Position numbers and translations under genes: made by a program
NCBI GenBank assembly: GCA_017994175.1
Contig: JAGOLH010000018.1
Location: 1 to 46,626, forward strand
Direction: 5' to 3'
DNA length: 46,626 bases
Source of the DNA: Bacteroidales bacterium
Lineage (GTDB): Bacteria; Bacteroidota; Bacteroidia; Bacteroidales; ML635J-15
Notes under the pieces: generated by a model
Told to the model about the DNA's origin: nothing
The model's database searches: none
What the model saw: the letters and a program-made list of their open reading frames with translations, nothing else
Shown: in pieces, positions 3 to 46,500 of the stretch
Layout of the letters: the number at the start of each line of letters is the position of its first letter
Position numbering within the stretch: the first letter of the stretch is position 1

Positions 3-1001
3 GCTCACTATGACATTCTTTCAAAAAGACCAACCTACTACAACAGACTCGATCTGATTGAATACTATTTTATTCGTCAGAAAAACGGAGATATTCTGAA
101 TAATCCCAATCTGAAAACTGAAAAAACTATTGATTATGAGTTGGGATTCCAGCAAAAACTGGGAAATACTTCATCATTGAAGTTATCGGCATTCTATCGT
201 GAAATGCGCGATATGCAGCAGGCAGTCGCAGTATATGGTGCATACCCGGTTAATTATTACACTTATGGTAATATCGATTTTGGAACTGTGAAAGGCTTTA
301 CTGCATCGTACGATTTGCGCCGTACCGGAAATGTTACCATGAGGGTGGCTTATACATTGCAGTTTGCCAATGGAACTGGTTCAAATGTGGAATCTGCTGC
401 TGCTATTATCAAATCAGATCAGCCGAATTTGCGTACTTCTATTCCACTCGATTTCGACCAGCGACATAATATTGCCATCACTCTTGACTATCGTTTTGGC
501 GGAAAAGTGTCAGGAACACCTTATGATGGTCCACGATGGTTCGGTGCTGATATTTTTGCCAATACTGGTGTAAACTTCGTTATAAACAGTGGATCTGGAT
601 CGCCCTATACAAAATACGATAAACCTACCAATGGTTCAATCGTTGGTTCTCTGAATGGCTCTCGCAAGCCTTGGAGAACAAGCATTAGCATGCGTATCGA
701 CAGGGATATCCGACTGAAACTTGCCAGTGCTAAAGAAGACGGAAGAAAAGATAAATATGGTTACCTGAATGTATACCTTGACATTTCCAACCTTCTGAAT
801 GCAAAGAATGTTCTTAGTGTTTACAGTTACACCGGTAATCCCGACGACGACGGTTATCTGAATTTCTCCGAAAACCAAAGTCAATTGGCAACACAAAACG
901 ACGAGGAAGCATATCGGAATTATTATTCAATGCTCATTAACAGTCCTTATAATTATACCTTGCCACGGACAATCAGGCTTGGTGTTCAGTTCAGTTTTTA
1001 A
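3..1001 (+). CDS. TonB-dependent receptor, C-terminal part (5' end outside window)
   Basis: This is the last roughly 330 residues of an outer-membrane TonB-dependent receptor; the frame is open from nucleotide 3, so the plug and most of the barrel lie upstream of the window. The visible part shows the alternating aromatic/polar strands of a 22-strand barrel, a typical receptor stretch around 'NPNLKTEKTIDYELGF' (about nt 105-150), and a terminal 'RLGVQFSF' ending in phenylalanine, the usual signal for BAM-mediated insertion. The family imports large or scarce ligands using TonB/ExbBD energy; the ligand cannot be read from this fragment, and no SusD-like partner follows it. It lies 34 bp upstream of the giant secreted protein, on the same strand and with no terminator between, so co-transcription is likely. 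The TTG at 141 is internal, not a start. Confidence 0.88.
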   Translation, partial: AHYDILSKRPTYYNRLDLIEYYFIRQKNGDILNNPNLKTEKTIDYELGFQQKLGNTSSLKLSAFYREMRDMQQAVAVYGAYPVNYYTYGNIDFGTVKGFTASYDLRRTGNVTMRVAYTLQFANGTGSNVESAAAIIKSDQPNLRTSIPLDFDQRHNIAITLDYRFGGKVSGTPYDGPRWFGADIFANTGVNFVINSGSGSPYTKYDKPTNGSIVGSLNGSRKPWRTSISMRIDRDIRLKLASAKEDGRKDKYGYLNVYLDISNLLNAKNVLSVYSYTGNPDDDGYLNFSENQSQLATQNDEEAYRNYYSMLINSPYNYTLPRTIRLGVQFSF

Positions 1002-1035
1002 AGAAATATTGTGAAATTCTAAAAGACAGCATAAA

Positions 1036-4000
1036 ATGAGAAGATTAAGAAAATTTGTATTCGCTTCGATTGCAGTGTGTTTAACAATTAATGCCATGGC
1101 TGATAAGGATCCCAGAATTCCCAGCCAGAACAACGACAATCAAAAAAACACACGGGCTGCAGCTGCATGCGAACCCTCAAAAACTTCTACAGAGTTATAT
1201 ATCAATAATGTTAGGGCTTTGATCCATACCGGCGGCGATATGTGGTGGGACCTCCAGGGAGACCCCAGATATGAAGTTCCTGCAGGTTCAGGCAGAAATG
1301 CACTTTTTGCAGGTTCTATCTGGATTGGAGGTAAAGACGCCAATGGTCAGCTTAAATTGGCAGCCCAACGTTTCCGCCAGGTAGGTATCGATTTTTGGCC
1401 TGGTCCTCTGATTGTTTCTGGTAATTTGCAAGGAACTACTTCTCAGGAAATCTGCAGGGAATACGACAAACATTTTGTAATCTCAAAGGAGATGGTTAAG
1501 GAATTCCGTGAGTGGTATGCTTGTTCACAAGACCCTGACTGTGATGTGGCAGAAAACTTCAGTACATACACTATTCCGGATATCATTTTGAATTGGCCTG
1601 CACATGGTCCTTCAGGTGGTTACGATTATTATCTCGCTCCTTTCTGGGATGTGGATGGTGACGGAACTTATAACCCATTGCAGGGAGACTTCCCATATTA
1701 TGAATTTGCCAATGAAGGGATTACTGATGACCCCGACTGTATGAGACCCAGAGACAGAATGTCGAAATTATTTGGCGACTATACATTATGGTGGGTTTAC
1801 AACGACAGAGGAAATATTCACACTGAAACAGGAGGCGACCCGATTGGTATGGAACTCAGGGCACAGGCATTCGCTTTTACAACTAATGATGAGCTCAATG
1901 ACATGACTTTTTACAATTATAACATTATCAACCGTTCTACATATACACTTTACAAAACCTATTTTGGTGTCTGGACAGATGCTGACTTGGGTGGTGCAAC
2001 CGATGACTATACGGGTTGCGATGTTCTCAGGGGATTGGGTTATATGTATAATGGTGATGCATTCGACGATGACTATCAGGGCAACCTTGGCTATGGCGAT
2101 CAGCCACCTGCAATAGGCATCGATTTTTTTGAAGGTCCCTATCAGGATAATGATGGAATTGATAACCCAACCAGCTTTGATACTTTAAATGGGGTTAAAG
2201 TACTTAATTGTCAGAAAGGCGACATCCTGAATGGAAATATCAACGGGTTGAATTTTGGGGACGGTACCGTTGATAATGAGCGTTGGGGGATGAGGCGGTT
2301 TTTATATTTTAATAATGCTTCGGGAAACCCTGCGACCCAAGATCCAAACTCTGCTATTGAACACTATAATTACCTCACGGGATTTTGGAAAGACAACTCA
2401 CCGTTGTGCTACGGAGGTACAGGTCATACTTCTGGTGGTGGCGATGCAAGTGTTCCTACCGATTTTATGTTCCCCGGAAAACCGACTACTGATATTTGCG
2501 GCTGGGGTCAGGGTGGTGTAATTATGCCTGACTGGTCAGAAGAAACTGAAGGAAACCCTGCAGGTGACCGTAGGTTTGTTCAATCTGCCGGTCCGTTTAT
2601 TCTGAAACCGGGTGCTGTGAACGATATTACAATTGGCGCTGTTTATGCAAGAGCTGCATCCGGAGGTCCTTGGGCTTCGGTAGAAGCTGTGAGAAAAGCT
2701 GATGATAAGGCCCAGATACTTTTCGAAAACTGCTTCCGCGTTCTTGATGGTCCCGATGCTCCTGAAATCGAAATTATTGAAATGGATAAACAACTGATTT
2801 TCCACATTTCAAATAAAACGAATTCCAATAACTACCTCGAAGAATATATCGAAAAAGATCCATCAATTGTTTGTACCGGTGAATATGAACCGTGCGACGA
2901 ATATTATCGTTTTCAGGGATATCAGATATTTCAGTTGAAAAACGAATCGGTAAGCATCAGCGATAGATACAATAACAACCTTGTTCGTCAGGTCTTCCAA
3001 TGTGATTTGAAAGATGAAATTGAACAGATTGTAAATTACACATGGTCAGATGAATTGGGTGCAAATGTGCCTGTTGAAGAAGTGAATGGATTAAATGAAG
3101 GTATAACTCACACATTTGTGATTAATACCGATAACTTTGCTACCGGCGATAACCGTTTGGTAAATCACAGAGAATATTACTACACAGCTATTGCTTATGG
3201 ATATAATAACAGTATGCTCTATAATCAGCAGGTGCAGGAAACATTTAACGGACAAAAGAAACCCTATCTGGCAGGTCGTAACAATATTAAACGCTACAAA
3301 GCCGTTCCTCACATCAACGACCCGGAAGACGGCGGAACAATAATTAATGGTGAATATGGTTATGGTCCTGAAATTACCCAGATCGAAGGACACGGTAATG
3401 CATTCAATGTTTTGGATCTGAAACAGGAATCAATCGACGAAATTATGTCGGGACACCCTTGGAAAGCCGAAAACCCTGTTTACGAAAACGGTAAAGGTCC
3501 TGTTACAGTGAAAATAATCGATCCTCTGAATGTTCCCGAAGATTCCTATACCTTGCAACTTGTTGATGCAGCAATATGGAGTTACGGATGGATTAAGGAA
3601 GGTGCAACATGGTACATTGTAAATAGTGCAGGCGATATGGTGAAATCAGACGTTAGCCTGAATTTCATTGGAAATGAACAGCTTATTCCTGACTGGGGGT
3701 TGTCGGTGAATGTGGTTCAGACCGAATATGCAGGCAACAGAAACAAAGTTAAAAACAACGGCTTTCTAGAAGCAAGCTATGAATTTGAAGATGAGACAAA
3801 ACCATGGCTGTACTTCCTGCCCGATGGCGATGGCAACGACGAATACAACTGGATAAGGGTTGGCACCTATCAGAATAAGGAAGGCGAACTTGAAGCAGGA
3901 GGAGCCGATAAGAGTTACGACGATTATATTGGTTACGATCCTGATGAAAACTACGAAAAAATACTTCAGGGCACCTGGGCTCCCTTTAAATTTGCTTCCG

Positions 4001-5127
4001 ATTTCAAATTCGGACCTGCCTACAAAGCTGCGCGTTCGATTCAGAATATCGAAAAATATGAACCCATCAGTAGTGTTGACATTATAATAACCAGCGACAC
4101 CAGCAAATGGACTCGCGCCTGTGTAGTAGAAATGTGTGAAAATGAATGGACAGTTGATGAGTACAATCACCCTGAACAGGTAACTCCGTGGGTAAATTAT
4201 TTGTCGGAAGGCAATGCTTTGAGATTTACACTTCGTAAACAGGGCTCAGTCGATAAAAACGGACAAGCTTTGAACGATGGAACCCATGGTTTGGGTTGGT
4301 TCCCCGGTTATGCTATCGACGTGAGAACGGGAGAACGTCTCAATATCGCCTTTGGAGAAGACAGCTGGCTGGTTGGAGAAAACGGACGCGATATGATCTG
4401 GAATCCTTCCGAAGGAATTGCAAGTAATACAGGTCCACTGTTCGGAGGTAAGCATTATATTTATGTTTTTGGTCATAACCAAAACTTTACCAACCCTCAG
4501 TTGCTTGCACCTCGGTACGACTCCTGTGCATTTATCTACAGTAAATTGCTTAATTATGAAACTTCTAACAATGCACTGGATTTACGCGCAGCGTGGACAT
4601 CATGTATGTGGACAGCAATTCCACTGAAAAATCCGAGTTTCGATTTGTTGTCATCCGATGTTAAAATCCGACTGAGAGTTGTTACTCCGTTGCATAAAGC
4701 ACTGGGCGATTTCGCAGTTGAAGAGCCGGTTAACGATAATTTGCCGATGTATACTTTCAGCACCTATGACGTTAAAACGATTAACAACGACACCGTTCAG
4801 GCTGTTAGTGCACTTGACCTTATAAATATCGTTCCGAACCCATATTACGGACACAGCTATTATGAAACAAACCAGCTGGAAAACTATGTTAGAATTACCA
4901 ATCTGCCTCGTAAATGCACTATATCAATATATAATGTAGGCGGAACTTTGGTTCGGCGTTTCGAAAAAGACTCTGATATAACCTATATCGACTGGGATTT
5001 GAAAAATACCTATAACATTTCGATTGCCAGTGGATTGTATATTGTTCATTTTAATGTACCGGGAGTAGGAGAGAAGGTTGTACGATGGTTTGGTGCATTA
5101 AGACCGCTCGACTTAAATAATTTCTAA
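1036..5127 (+). CDS. Giant secreted protein (1363 aa) with Por-type (T9SS type A-like) C-terminus
   Basis: The protein has no recognisable enzymatic domain. Residues 1-22 are a Sec signal peptide (basic start, hydrophobic core, cleavage after AMA). Around residues 205-219 an Asp-rich loop 'DVDGDGTYNP' resembles a calcium-binding turn, and other Asp/Gly-rich loops follow. From about residue 1266 ('VPNPYYG') to the end there is a beta-sandwich tail with 'ISIYNVGGTLVRRF' and 'SGLYIVHFNV', the pattern of T9SS type A sorting domains, but it continues past the usual end into a basic 'GEKVVRWFGALRP' segment. Inferred location is outside the cell or on its surface after T9SS export. It sits between a TonB-dependent receptor and a PorV/PorQ-family protein, which suggests a dedicated secretion or surface-binding unit. 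Function is unknown; it could be adhesive, structural or ligand-binding. Confidence 0.85.
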   Translation: MRRLRKFVFASIAVCLTINAMADKDPRIPSQNNDNQKNTRAAAACEPSKTSTELYINNVRALIHTGGDMWWDLQGDPRYEVPAGSGRNALFAGSIWIGGKDANGQLKLAAQRFRQVGIDFWPGPLIVSGNLQGTTSQEICREYDKHFVISKEMVKEFREWYACSQDPDCDVAENFSTYTIPDIILNWPAHGPSGGYDYYLAPFWDVDGDGTYNPLQGDFPYYEFANEGITDDPDCMRPRDRMSKLFGDYTLWWVYNDRGNIHTETGGDPIGMELRAQAFAFTTNDELNDMTFYNYNIINRSTYTLYKTYFGVWTDADLGGATDDYTGCDVLRGLGYMYNGDAFDDDYQGNLGYGDQPPAIGIDFFEGPYQDNDGIDNPTSFDTLNGVKVLNCQKGDILNGNINGLNFGDGTVDNERWGMRRFLYFNNASGNPATQDPNSAIEHYNYLTGFWKDNSPLCYGGTGHTSGGGDASVPTDFMFPGKPTTDICGWGQGGVIMPDWSEETEGNPAGDRRFVQSAGPFILKPGAVNDITIGAVYARAASGGPWASVEAVRKADDKAQILFENCFRVLDGPDAPEIEIIEMDKQLIFHISNKTNSNNYLEEYIEKDPSIVCTGEYEPCDEYYRFQGYQIFQLKNESVSISDRYNNNLVRQVFQCDLKDEIEQIVNYTWSDELGANVPVEEVNGLNEGITHTFVINTDNFATGDNRLVNHREYYYTAIAYGYNNSMLYNQQVQETFNGQKKPYLAGRNNIKRYKAVPHINDPEDGGTIINGEYGYGPEITQIEGHGNAFNVLDLKQESIDEIMSGHPWKAENPVYENGKGPVTVKIIDPLNVPEDSYTLQLVDAAIWSYGWIKEGATWYIVNSAGDMVKSDVSLNFIGNEQLIPDWGLSVNVVQTEYAGNRNKVKNNGFLEASYEFEDETKPWLYFLPDGDGNDEYNWIRVGTYQNKEGELEAGGADKSYDDYIGYDPDENYEKILQGTWAPFKFASDFKFGPAYKAARSIQNIEKYEPISSVDIIITSDTSKWTRACVVEMCENEWTVDEYNHPEQVTPWVNYLSEGNALRFTLRKQGSVDKNGQALNDGTHGLGWFPGYAIDVRTGERLNIAFGEDSWLVGENGRDMIWNPSEGIASNTGPLFGGKHYIYVFGHNQNFTNPQLLAPRYDSCAFIYSKLLNYETSNNALDLRAAWTSCMWTAIPLKNPSFDLLSSDVKIRLRVVTPLHKALGDFAVEEPVNDNLPMYTFSTYDVKTINNDTVQAVSALDLINIVPNPYYGHSYYETNQLENYVRITNLPRKCTISIYNVGGTLVRRFEKDSDITYIDWDLKNTYNISIASGLYIVHFNVPGVGEKVVRWFGALRPLDLNNF

Positions 5128-5159
5128 CAAGTAATTGCAAATAATTAATAGATAAAAAT

Positions 5160-6272
5160 ATGAAAAAGTGCTTTAGCCAAATAGTAAGCGTAATGATTGC
5201 AGGTTTGTTGCTTTTACCTGCCCTGAGTTTTGGTGGAAACGAGCAGCGTGCCGGATCCAGCGGAGCATCGGAACTCCTTATAAATCCCTGGGCACGAAGT
5301 TCGGGATGGGGCGATGCAAATGTAGCCTGTGTTATGGGTCTCGAAGGTATGTACCAGAATATAGCAGGAATTGCTTTTACCCGTAAAACTGAACTTATAT
5401 TTAACAATACGCAATGGATGGTTGGCTCCGGTGTGGTAATCAATAACTTTGGTTTTGCTCAGAAAGTGGGAGAAACAGGAGTTCTTTCTGTGGGCGTGAT
5501 GAATATGAATTTCGGCGAAATCGAGATTACAACACCAGATTTGCCTGAAGGCGGTATTGGTACATTTAAACCTTCTTACACCAATATTGAGCTTGCATTT
5601 GCAAAGGAGTTTTCGCACAGTATATACGGAGGTATAGGCGTTAAAATTATCAACGAAGGAGTTGCCAATGCTACCGCGTCAGGATTTGCCATTGATGCAG
5701 GTATTCAGTACGTTACTGGCTTTGGAAAAGACAAAGCAGGAAACAGGAAGCGCGATAACTTACGCTTTGGTATTGCAATGAAAAACGTTGGATCGACTAT
5801 GAAATTTAAAGGTGATGGTATGGCTTTCACAGGAATTGTTCCCAATGGAACAAGCATGACCGTTGAACACAGATCGCAGGAATTCGAACTTCCTTCGCTT
5901 ATAAAAATCGGATTGAGCTATTCCATAAATCTTGACGCTAAGGTTGATAGTGTGAGTGAAACAGTGATTTCAAATCATCATCTGACTATTGCTGCAAATT
6001 TCACTGCAAATTCATTTACCAAAGACCAGTTTCATTTTGGAATGGAATACGGATTTAAAAACATATTCTTCCTGCGCGGTGGATATATGTACGAAAAAGG
6101 TATTACTGATGTAAACGATAGAACTACTGCCCTAACCGGGCCTACGGCTGGTGTGAGTGTGCAGATCCCGATGAATAAGGAGAAAAAATCCGTTATTGCC
6201 ATCGATTACTCATATCGCACTACTCAACCTTTCTCGGGAATTCATACTTTTGGAGCCAGGGTAACATTATAG
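5160..6272 (+). CDS. PorV/PorQ-family outer-membrane barrel protein
   Basis: The 370-residue protein has a signal peptide at residues 1-25 (cleavage near 'LSFG') and then an all-beta barrel of the PorV/PorQ (UPF0164, FadL-like) family: 'GASELLINPWARSSGWGDANVA' region, 'MYQNIAGIAF', and a terminal strand 'FGARVTL'. In T9SS, PorV is a 14-strand barrel that picks up cargo by its C-terminal domain after translocation and carries it to the attachment complex; PorQ is a related barrel. It follows the giant secreted protein by 32 bp and ends just before an intrinsic terminator, so the three genes from the receptor onward look like one operon. I infer a dedicated PorV-like carrier for the preceding protein rather than the housekeeping PorV, which usually lies beside porU. 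Family assignment is firm; the partner assignment is inference. Confidence 0.85.
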   Translation: MKKCFSQIVSVMIAGLLLLPALSFGGNEQRAGSSGASELLINPWARSSGWGDANVACVMGLEGMYQNIAGIAFTRKTELIFNNTQWMVGSGVVINNFGFAQKVGETGVLSVGVMNMNFGEIEITTPDLPEGGIGTFKPSYTNIELAFAKEFSHSIYGGIGVKIINEGVANATASGFAIDAGIQYVTGFGKDKAGNRKRDNLRFGIAMKNVGSTMKFKGDGMAFTGIVPNGTSMTVEHRSQEFELPSLIKIGLSYSINLDAKVDSVSETVISNHHLTIAANFTANSFTKDQFHFGMEYGFKNIFFLRGGYMYEKGITDVNDRTTALTGPTAGVSVQIPMNKEKKSVIAIDYSYRTTQPFSGIHTFGARVTL

Positions 6273-6427: not shown

Positions 6428-6456
6428 AAGAAACCTCTTGAAAATGGGGGTTTCTT
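6428..6456 (+). promoter_or_regulatory. 5'-terminal stem-loop in the greA leader
   Basis: AAGAAACC (6428-6435) pairs perfectly with GGTTTCTT (6449-6456), with further T-G and C-G pairs inside, and is followed by a T-rich stretch. It starts almost exactly at the predicted transcription start, so it would form the 5' end of the greA mRNA. It might protect the mRNA end, act as an attenuator because of the following T run, or end upstream transcripts. Which of these applies cannot be told from sequence. Confidence 0.55.
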
Positions 6457-45057: not shown

Positions 45058-46500
45058 ATGAAAACGTTTTTTACAGCATGCGTCTTTGTATGGATATGTT
45101 CTTTGGGACTATCTGCATTACCTGTTTCTGTTGAAAATGCTACAAAAGGAGCTCTGCATTTTATTTCCTGCGAAAAGAAACTCAATCATTGTCAGATTGT
45201 AGATTTTCAGCATATTACTGTAGGTGGTGAAACCGTTGCCTATGCTTTTAACCTTAGCCCTATGGGTTATATCGTTATGAGTTCGAGTTACTATCTACCC
45301 CCGGTTATAGCCTTTTCGACAGAAAGCGGTTTCGGGGAATTGGGAGAACACAATCCTTTATACACGCTAATTGTTAGTGACCTCCCCCTGAGAATGAAGT
45401 ATTCATCTGATATCGAGGCCGGCTACGCCAGAGAAAATATATTACAATGGGAGGCATTGCTGAATCAAAACCCTAGGAGTAAAGGTGAACCCCAGCAATG
45501 GCCGGAAGGGCAGGAAGGATGGATACAATCAAGCTGGAACCAGAATGCTCCCTACTGGAATATGTGTCCGGTTGACCCAGTAACCCATGTAAGATGTTAC
45601 ACTGGTTGCCCTGCAACAGCTATGGCTATGATTATGGATTTTCATGCAACAACAAACAATGTTCAATTCACAGATGAAGATGATTATTACCACAGTTATG
45701 CCGGGCGAAATTACTGGATTGATGATGATTTTGAGGCAAACGGGTTCCCATCGTTTCCTGATCTTAACAAATACCTTGATACCCTGAATATGCATTACCA
45801 GCTAAAAAGCGTTATTACGAGCAACGACAAAGCCGCATTAAGTTTTGCATGCGGCATAGCTGCACACCAGGTATACACATCTCAGGGCTCAGGGACTTTT
45901 GCCGTATCTCAGGCCTATGATGCATATATGCGTTTTGGTTGCATAACCGCAGTGCTTATGTACCCGGAGGAAGAAGGAGTTTTCGACAGCATCATTCTGA
46001 ATATACAACATGCTTTACCCGTGCACCTTGCAGTTGTCGATGAGAGTAATTCATCGGGACATAATCTTGTAATAGACGGGTATCGTACCGATAATTACTT
46101 TCATCTCGACTATGGCTATGGAGAGTATTATAACGGGTGGTACCTGATCCCTTCCGAAATACAGATGGGCCTTACAGTAATTGAGGGTGTCATCGTAAAT
46201 ATTATGAAACAAAACACTTCGGGAATATATTTCCCAATTGCTGAGCAAAGCAATATTGAGGTATTTCCTGTGCCTGCTAACGATTTCTGTAACATTCAAT
46301 GCTGTAAACTGTCGGACGGGAATGCCAAAATTGCAGTATGTAATGGCTTTGGTGCTGAAATTTTAAAAACTTCAGTTGATATGTTCGATTCGGAAAATCG
46401 GCTTAGAATCGATACAGGCTCATTACCCGAAGGAATATATTTCGTGAAAATAAATTCAGGTGCAGAAACAAAATTTGCTAAAATTATTGTAATACATTAA
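45058..46500 (+). CDS. C10-family cysteine protease (streptopain-like) with T9SS type A sorting domain
   Basis: The 480-residue secreted protease has a signal peptide (about 1-20, cleavage near LSA), an inhibitory Spi-like prodomain (about 22-115), and the C10 catalytic domain: 'SSWNQNAPYWNMCP' then C184 in 'YTGCPATAMAMIMDFH' (nucleophile, nt 45607-45609) and H335 in 'GHNLVIDGY' (nt 46060-46062), followed by the 'YFHLDYGYGEYYNGWYLI' Trp/Gly region of streptopain and interpain. The last 80 residues, from 'IEVFPVPANDFCNIQ' to 'LPEGIYFVKINSG...FAKIIVIH', are a T9SS type A tail, so the protease is exported through T9SS and surface-bound or released. Natural role: extracellular protein breakdown. 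An insertion sequence begins one base after the stop. Confidence 0.93.
   Translation: MKTFFTACVFVWICSLGLSALPVSVENATKGALHFISCEKKLNHCQIVDFQHITVGGETVAYAFNLSPMGYIVMSSSYYLPPVIAFSTESGFGELGEHNPLYTLIVSDLPLRMKYSSDIEAGYARENILQWEALLNQNPRSKGEPQQWPEGQEGWIQSSWNQNAPYWNMCPVDPVTHVRCYTGCPATAMAMIMDFHATTNNVQFTDEDDYYHSYAGRNYWIDDDFEANGFPSFPDLNKYLDTLNMHYQLKSVITSNDKAALSFACGIAAHQVYTSQGSGTFAVSQAYDAYMRFGCITAVLMYPEEEGVFDSIILNIQHALPVHLAVVDESNSSGHNLVIDGYRTDNYFHLDYGYGEYYNGWYLIPSEIQMGLTVIEGVIVNIMKQNTSGIYFPIAEQSNIEVFPVPANDFCNIQCCKLSDGNAKIAVCNGFGAEILKTSVDMFDSENRLRIDTGSLPEGIYFVKINSGAETKFAKIIVIH

Follow-up and report, generated by a model that had tools for sequence, protein, structure and literature searches.

A phylum-wide gene triad in Bacteroidota couples a TonB-dependent receptor, a giant protein with a variant type IX sorting domain and a PorV-family barrel

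The first three genes of the stretch of Bacteroidales DNA analysed here (46,626 nucleotides, referred to as the window) encode a TonB-dependent receptor (TBDR), a giant secreted protein and an outer-membrane barrel of the PorV/PorQ family. The triad could be confirmed. It represents, in a single copy, a module that is inherited in an all-or-none manner throughout the phylum. The window is the beginning of contig C41 of a draft genome of 3.17 Mb; among named genomes, its nearest relatives are metagenome genomes of Bacteroidales. The three open reading frames lie on the forward strand at positions 3-1001, 1036-5127 and 5160-6272, separated by gaps of 34 and 32 bp. Since the contig starts there, the first contains only the last 332 residues, i.e. 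the 3' part, of the TBDR gene (PF00593, 40.6 bits). The second encodes the giant of 1363 aa, for which full-length homologues exist, and the third the barrel of 370 aa. A sequence-only reading of this DNA had pointed to the tight same-strand arrangement, which we see as well, and to a terminator at its end. A terminator-like stem is indeed located at positions 6428-6456. Because the scan gave fewer terminator sites than shuffled sequences (5 versus 7.9), this stem counts for little and was set aside as operon evidence.

Scanning a genome collection revealed 197 stretches encoding a relative of the giant, and the best 78 of these loci were examined. These derive mainly from Bacteroidales and Flavobacteriales, are mostly metagenome-assembled, and share 40-79% identity with the giant in the best segment, in most cases matching over nearly the full length. 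Both flanks were readable for 77 full-length giants. A TBDR gene directly before and a PorV-like gene directly after the giant were found in 65 of them, neither in 12, and one of the two alone in none. Chance adjacency of the three genes was rejected on these counts. Five of the 12 partnerless giants are additional copies in tandem with a complete triad (loci L035, L042, L043, L094, and L104). Regarding the other seven, six genomes have a triad-class PorV elsewhere (467-541 bits); none was found in the draft genome of L092. Two checks had been proposed along with the sequence-only reading, namely whether receptor, giant and PorV-like gene stay together across genomes and whether homologues of the giant are widespread without such a neighbour, and both came out in its favour. 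The triad is followed by greA and a HIT-family gene in 50 of the 59 cases with enough sequence, the window included. From this conserved setting it follows that the Bacteroidia locus is probably old and was mostly inherited vertically. In the Bacteroidia the triad is single-copy and lies among housekeeping genes (greA, HIT), not among sugar genes.

A complete homologue of the receptor, encoded in L035, has a length of about 1210 aa and contains a carboxypeptidase-regulatory domain (CarboxypepD_reg), a plug and a barrel. For this homologue, no match to the SusC/RagA model TIGR04056 is listed. Triad TBDRs of other classes reached at most 80 bits with this model, the cut-off being 368 bits. Judged by score, the triad TBDRs are not SusC proteins. 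In one locus (L067:3198-6979) the receptor gene upstream of the giant is split into several frames, representing either a pseudogene or assembly errors.

The giant starts with a signal-peptide-like (Sec) stretch at about residues 1-22, as read from the sequence, and is very highly conserved along its entire length, with 146 near-invariant positions in an alignment of 84 sequences. Pfam and NCBIfam searches revealed no enzymatic domain, in agreement with the earlier reading. The only domain signals were a weak sorting-domain match and a CBM65 match below the cut-off (16 bits, E 0.012), which was disregarded. Residues 24-590 (positions 1105-2805, forward strand) were predicted to form a beta-supersandwich (pLDDT 91.4) resembling the domain at the N-terminus of GH94, GH116, GH65 and related enzymes, with 9ju0 as the best structure match (Z 18.9, rmsd 3.2, 253 aligned residues). 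The catalytic (alpha/alpha)6 helical barrel of the GH65/94/116 enzymes was not observed in the two models of the giant, and there was no Pfam enzyme match indicating a glycoside hydrolase or phosphorylase. The predicted fold held in common with glycosidases does not show sugar or glycan binding. The second model, which covers the giant from residue 575 on, begins with a region that gave a fibronectin-like match too weak to be considered (Z under 8).

Profile and structure matches place a variant C-terminal domain (CTD) of the type IX secretion system (T9SS) at residues 1256-1363 of the giant (positions 4801-5124, forward strand). This domain had been described as type A-like, which holds for its fold: the predicted CTD has the Ig-like beta-sandwich of type A CTDs (Z 6.9-10.3). 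The best structure match was the PorZ CTD (Z 10.3, rmsd 2.6, 91 aligned residues, 28% identity), followed by PorU (Z 9.0), mirolase (7.8), RemA (7.2), and NucA (6.9). A grouping with the ordinary type A domains, for which a check had also been suggested, did not hold. The CTD alone scored 21.6 bits with the type A model TIGR04183, below its cut-off of 23, and the whole giant 16 bits. TIGR04183 weakly matches all 63 CTDs, and the PorZ and PorU models match all 63 too. When the genomes of 41 relatives were searched with a model of the CTD, only giants and their tandem copies exceeded 120 bits, the next best match reaching 37 bits. An ordinary type A CTD was rejected on account of the score under the TIGR04183 cut-off and the restriction of this class, in the relatives, to the giant family. 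By profile and predicted structure, the CTD of the giant is a type A variant that resembles PorZ and PorU and forms a class of its own. From NPYY to the C-terminal end it spans 96 residues, which is the length of the PorZ CTD, compared to 67-88 residues for cleaved CTDs (PMC11285876). PorZ and PorU retain their CTDs, which bind PorQ and PorV, respectively (PMC10202324, PMC11285876, PMC5562754).

An unusual basic stretch had also been noted behind the sorting domain. A stretch of this kind is present, and its nature could be specified: GEKVVRWFG is the last predicted strand of the CTD itself and is followed by the tail ALRPLDLNNF. The tail, RPxDLxxF, is kept in most triad giants, giving the motif KWFGxLRPxDLxxF together with the end of the strand. 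Tandem second copies of the giant in the closest relatives of the window end in KWFGSxxQE without the RPxDLxxF tail. Such tailless copies (L034, L035:12512-16624, L042:12567-16709, and L043:12317-16468) are located just downstream of a complete triad and have no barrel of their own.

The 370-aa barrel belongs to the PorV/PorQ family (NF033709, 146.1 bits, cut-off 90) and to none of the named equivalogs, since it scored below the cut-offs of PorV (70 of 250 bits), PorQ (64 of 220) and PorV2 (55 of 325). It is the fourth PorV-family gene of the genome; PorV, PorQ and PorV2 are encoded elsewhere and score above their cut-offs. The assignment as a PorV/PorQ-family paralogue directly behind the giant was thus confirmed. 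The accompanying statement that PorV barrels are located apart from any one cargo gene does not hold in general, because in the same genome porV adjoins porU and porV2 adjoins porU2, PorQ being without a CTD-protein neighbour. Hence, the triad repeats a known pattern of CTD protein and barrel. The PorU2-PorV2 pair of the window's genome (L222, G000:C2:47000-58000) consists of a putative sortase of 1680 aa beside a PorV2 of 358 aa. In a tree of the PorV family the barrels of Bacteroidia triads group with those of other classes. We make no claim on the origin of the barrel, since PorV, PorQ and PorV2 form long branches whose placing is unsafe.

The genome of the window contains 149 type A CTDs matching TIGR04183 above the cut-off, and according to a comparison of positions only that of PorU adjoins a PorV-family gene. 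A protein of 480 aa encoded at positions 45058-46500 of the window, whose type A CTD scored 24.4 bits, just above the TIGR04183 cut-off, is a candidate for ordinary T9SS cargo; it has no PorV-like neighbour within the window. Proteins that share the N-terminal domain of the giant but carry an ordinary type A-like CTD had no PorV-like or TBDR neighbour in any of the 14 cases, as read from the stretches. Since these sharers of the N-terminal domain are without partners, the PorV and TBDR partners follow the class of the CTD. On genomic grounds, the partnership of giant, barrel and TBDR is CTD-linked. The gene linkage or co-inheritance by which cognate pairs of CTD protein and barrel are recognised was found for the giant and its barrel. 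The proposal of a dedicated pair, with the TBDR belonging to the same unit, appears well supported by these genomic data.

The module is not confined to the Bacteroidia. We searched a sample of the phylum comprising 296 genomes and studied five genomes of other classes closely. The other-class genomes encode proteins of about 1000-1300 aa that carry the same class of CTD, with a PorV-like gene directly downstream. In the five genomes, 32 of the 36 CTDs with at least 70 bits have a same-strand PorV-like gene directly behind them; conversely, 31 out of 34 PorV-like genes with at least 120 bits adjoin a CTD of at least 70 bits. Among the pairs retrieved, 46 were full triads with a TBDR gene upstream, ranging from 4 to 14 per genome. 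Distances between paralogues within a genome correlate for CTD and PorV, CTD and TBDR, and PorV and TBDR (r 0.60-0.90), with permutation p values of 0.0002-0.0066 for four of the genomes and just four triads available in the other. This indicates that the sets duplicate and persist as units. These correlations are a sign of partner fidelity or co-inheritance and not of contact. Genes for a GH2 galactosidase, CBM9-containing T9SS proteins, a LacI regulator, a sodium:solute symporter, and ABC transporters were found near some of the other-class triads, which suggests uptake of polymers or sugars there.

Two further arrangements were observed in these genomes. All five contain a weaker CTD (55-62 bits) with a PorV-like gene on the same strand 6.6-7.7 kb downstream (G276:C1:671798-679808, G307:C3:74989-83009, G054:C12:47282-55935, G164:C1:1467185-1475044, and G070:C1:4237816-4246588), and this conserved spacing suggests another recurrent locus. 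In a rearranged triad (L220, G164:C1:3165000-3184000) two CTD proteins of 1056 and 1057 aa are encoded back to back, with TBDR-like and PorV-like genes on the strand opposite to both.

The three genes form one inherited module. We consider it probable that the barrel serves as cognate exporter or anchor of the giant and that the giant acts at the cell surface as the binding subunit of the TBDR. It would be the adjacent PorV-family barrel, rather than the housekeeping PorV, that handles the CTD of the giant. Most likely, the barrel would collect the giant from the translocon and keep hold of the probably uncleaved CTD, thereby anchoring the giant at the cell surface in the same way as PorQ does with PorZ. 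The giant with its supersandwich may then capture a ligand that is probably a glycan or some other polymer fragment, and present it for uptake by the TBDR as the energised partner; its role would resemble that of SusD next to SusC. Binding of the CTD to the barrel, its escape from cleavage, anchoring, and uptake are steps that we infer. The tandem second copies and the few distant copies without adjacent barrel count against this explanation, and so do the draft genome of L092 without a triad-class PorV, the housekeeping surroundings of the locus in Bacteroidia, and TBDR scores below the SusC cut-off.

The evidence for a pairing of giant and barrel fits equally well with a barrel acting as a transient private shuttle to PorU, after which the CTD would be cleaved and the giant attached to lipopolysaccharide or released. 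The housekeeping PorV acts as such a shuttle for type A cargo (PMC5562754). However, the giant CTD is nearer to the retained CTDs of PorZ and PorU than to those of cleaved or ordinary cargo, and its 96 residues correspond to PorZ and exceed the range of cleaved CTDs (PMC11285876). The PorZ/PorU-like CTD therefore favours an anchor, and we regard a transient shuttle as rather unlikely. That the giant is merely a co-transcribed neighbour and ordinary type A cargo of the housekeeping PorV would agree with the weak TIGR04183 matches of all 63 CTDs and with the tandem copies lacking a private barrel. Nevertheless, this seems highly improbable in view of the all-or-none linkage, of the linkage seen in other classes, of partners that track the class of the CTD rather than the N-terminal domain, and of the lack of such neighbours beside the genes for ordinary type A cargo in this genome.

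The function of the triad might also be sought in surface structure or maintenance, e.g. adhesion or envelope assembly, with the TBDR having a structural or energy-transducing role and no nutrient being taken up. The single copy in Bacteroidia in its conserved setting beside greA and the HIT-family gene, and the very high conservation of the whole giant, would suit such a complex. In contrast, the other classes contain many paralogous triads, some beside sugar-related genes, which is what uptake systems for different ligands would be expected to show, so that a maintenance complex appears unlikely. Returning to the cognate exporter or anchor, we tentatively extend it to a type IX-assembled uptake machine, in which the ligand-binding surface subunit of a TBDR is, in place of a SusD-like lipoprotein, a T9SS-exported giant held by its own PorV-family barrel via an uncleaved CTD, and which may exist in up to 14 orthogonal sets per genome across the Bacteroidota. 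We hold this wider scheme to be possible.

Ordinary T9SS-exported proteins are thought to use one common carrier barrel. According to a study from 2025, PorV recognises all type A CTDs, and cognate PorP/SprF barrels serve type B CTDs (PMC12618676). If confirmed, the triad departs from the former claim. A review suggested that PorV-like barrels may shield their cognate CTDs from cleavage (PMC10202324). Among the open-licence papers listed in our literature searches, we saw no description of the triad, nor any paper that treats T9SS, PorV and Ignavibacteria together. If our reading is true, the triads would constitute a third, large class of CTD/barrel pairs beside type B and PorZ, and the role of the T9SS would reach beyond secretion to the assembly of energised receptor complexes. 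The many natural orthogonal sets per genome would then provide a study system for CTD-barrel selection and for the protection of CTDs from the sortase. Moreover, a likely role could be assigned to a conserved family of very large proteins without accepted Pfam or NCBIfam domain.

Among known systems, PorZ-PorQ and PorU-PorV likewise pair a CTD protein with a PorV/PorQ-family barrel, porU and porV being adjacent in the same order as giant and barrel, and the giant has a PorZ/PorU-like CTD. Judging from its predicted structure, the CTD of the giant may be retained like those of PorZ and PorU. Unlike PorZ and PorU, the giant has neither a sortase nor a PorZ body, the unit includes a TBDR, and other classes have many orthogonal copies per genome. 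Type B CTD proteins and PorP/SprF barrels, such as SprB-SprF, also combine a cargo gene with its own barrel gene in several pairs per genome (PMC12618676, PMC9143113), whereas the CTD of the giant has the Ig-like, type A-like fold, the barrel is a PorV-family member, and the unit further contains a TBDR. As in SusC-SusD, a TBDR with carboxypeptidase-regulatory and plug domains is encoded next to a large surface protein, but the triad TBDR is far below the SusC cut-off and its partner is a T9SS CTD protein instead of a SusD lipoprotein. With ordinary type A cargo, which PorV handles, the triad shares the Ig-like CTD fold, the signal-peptide-like N-terminus and a carrier of the PorV family; it differs from such cargo in the dedicated adjacent barrel, the conserved C-terminal tail, and the score below the TIGR04183 cut-off.
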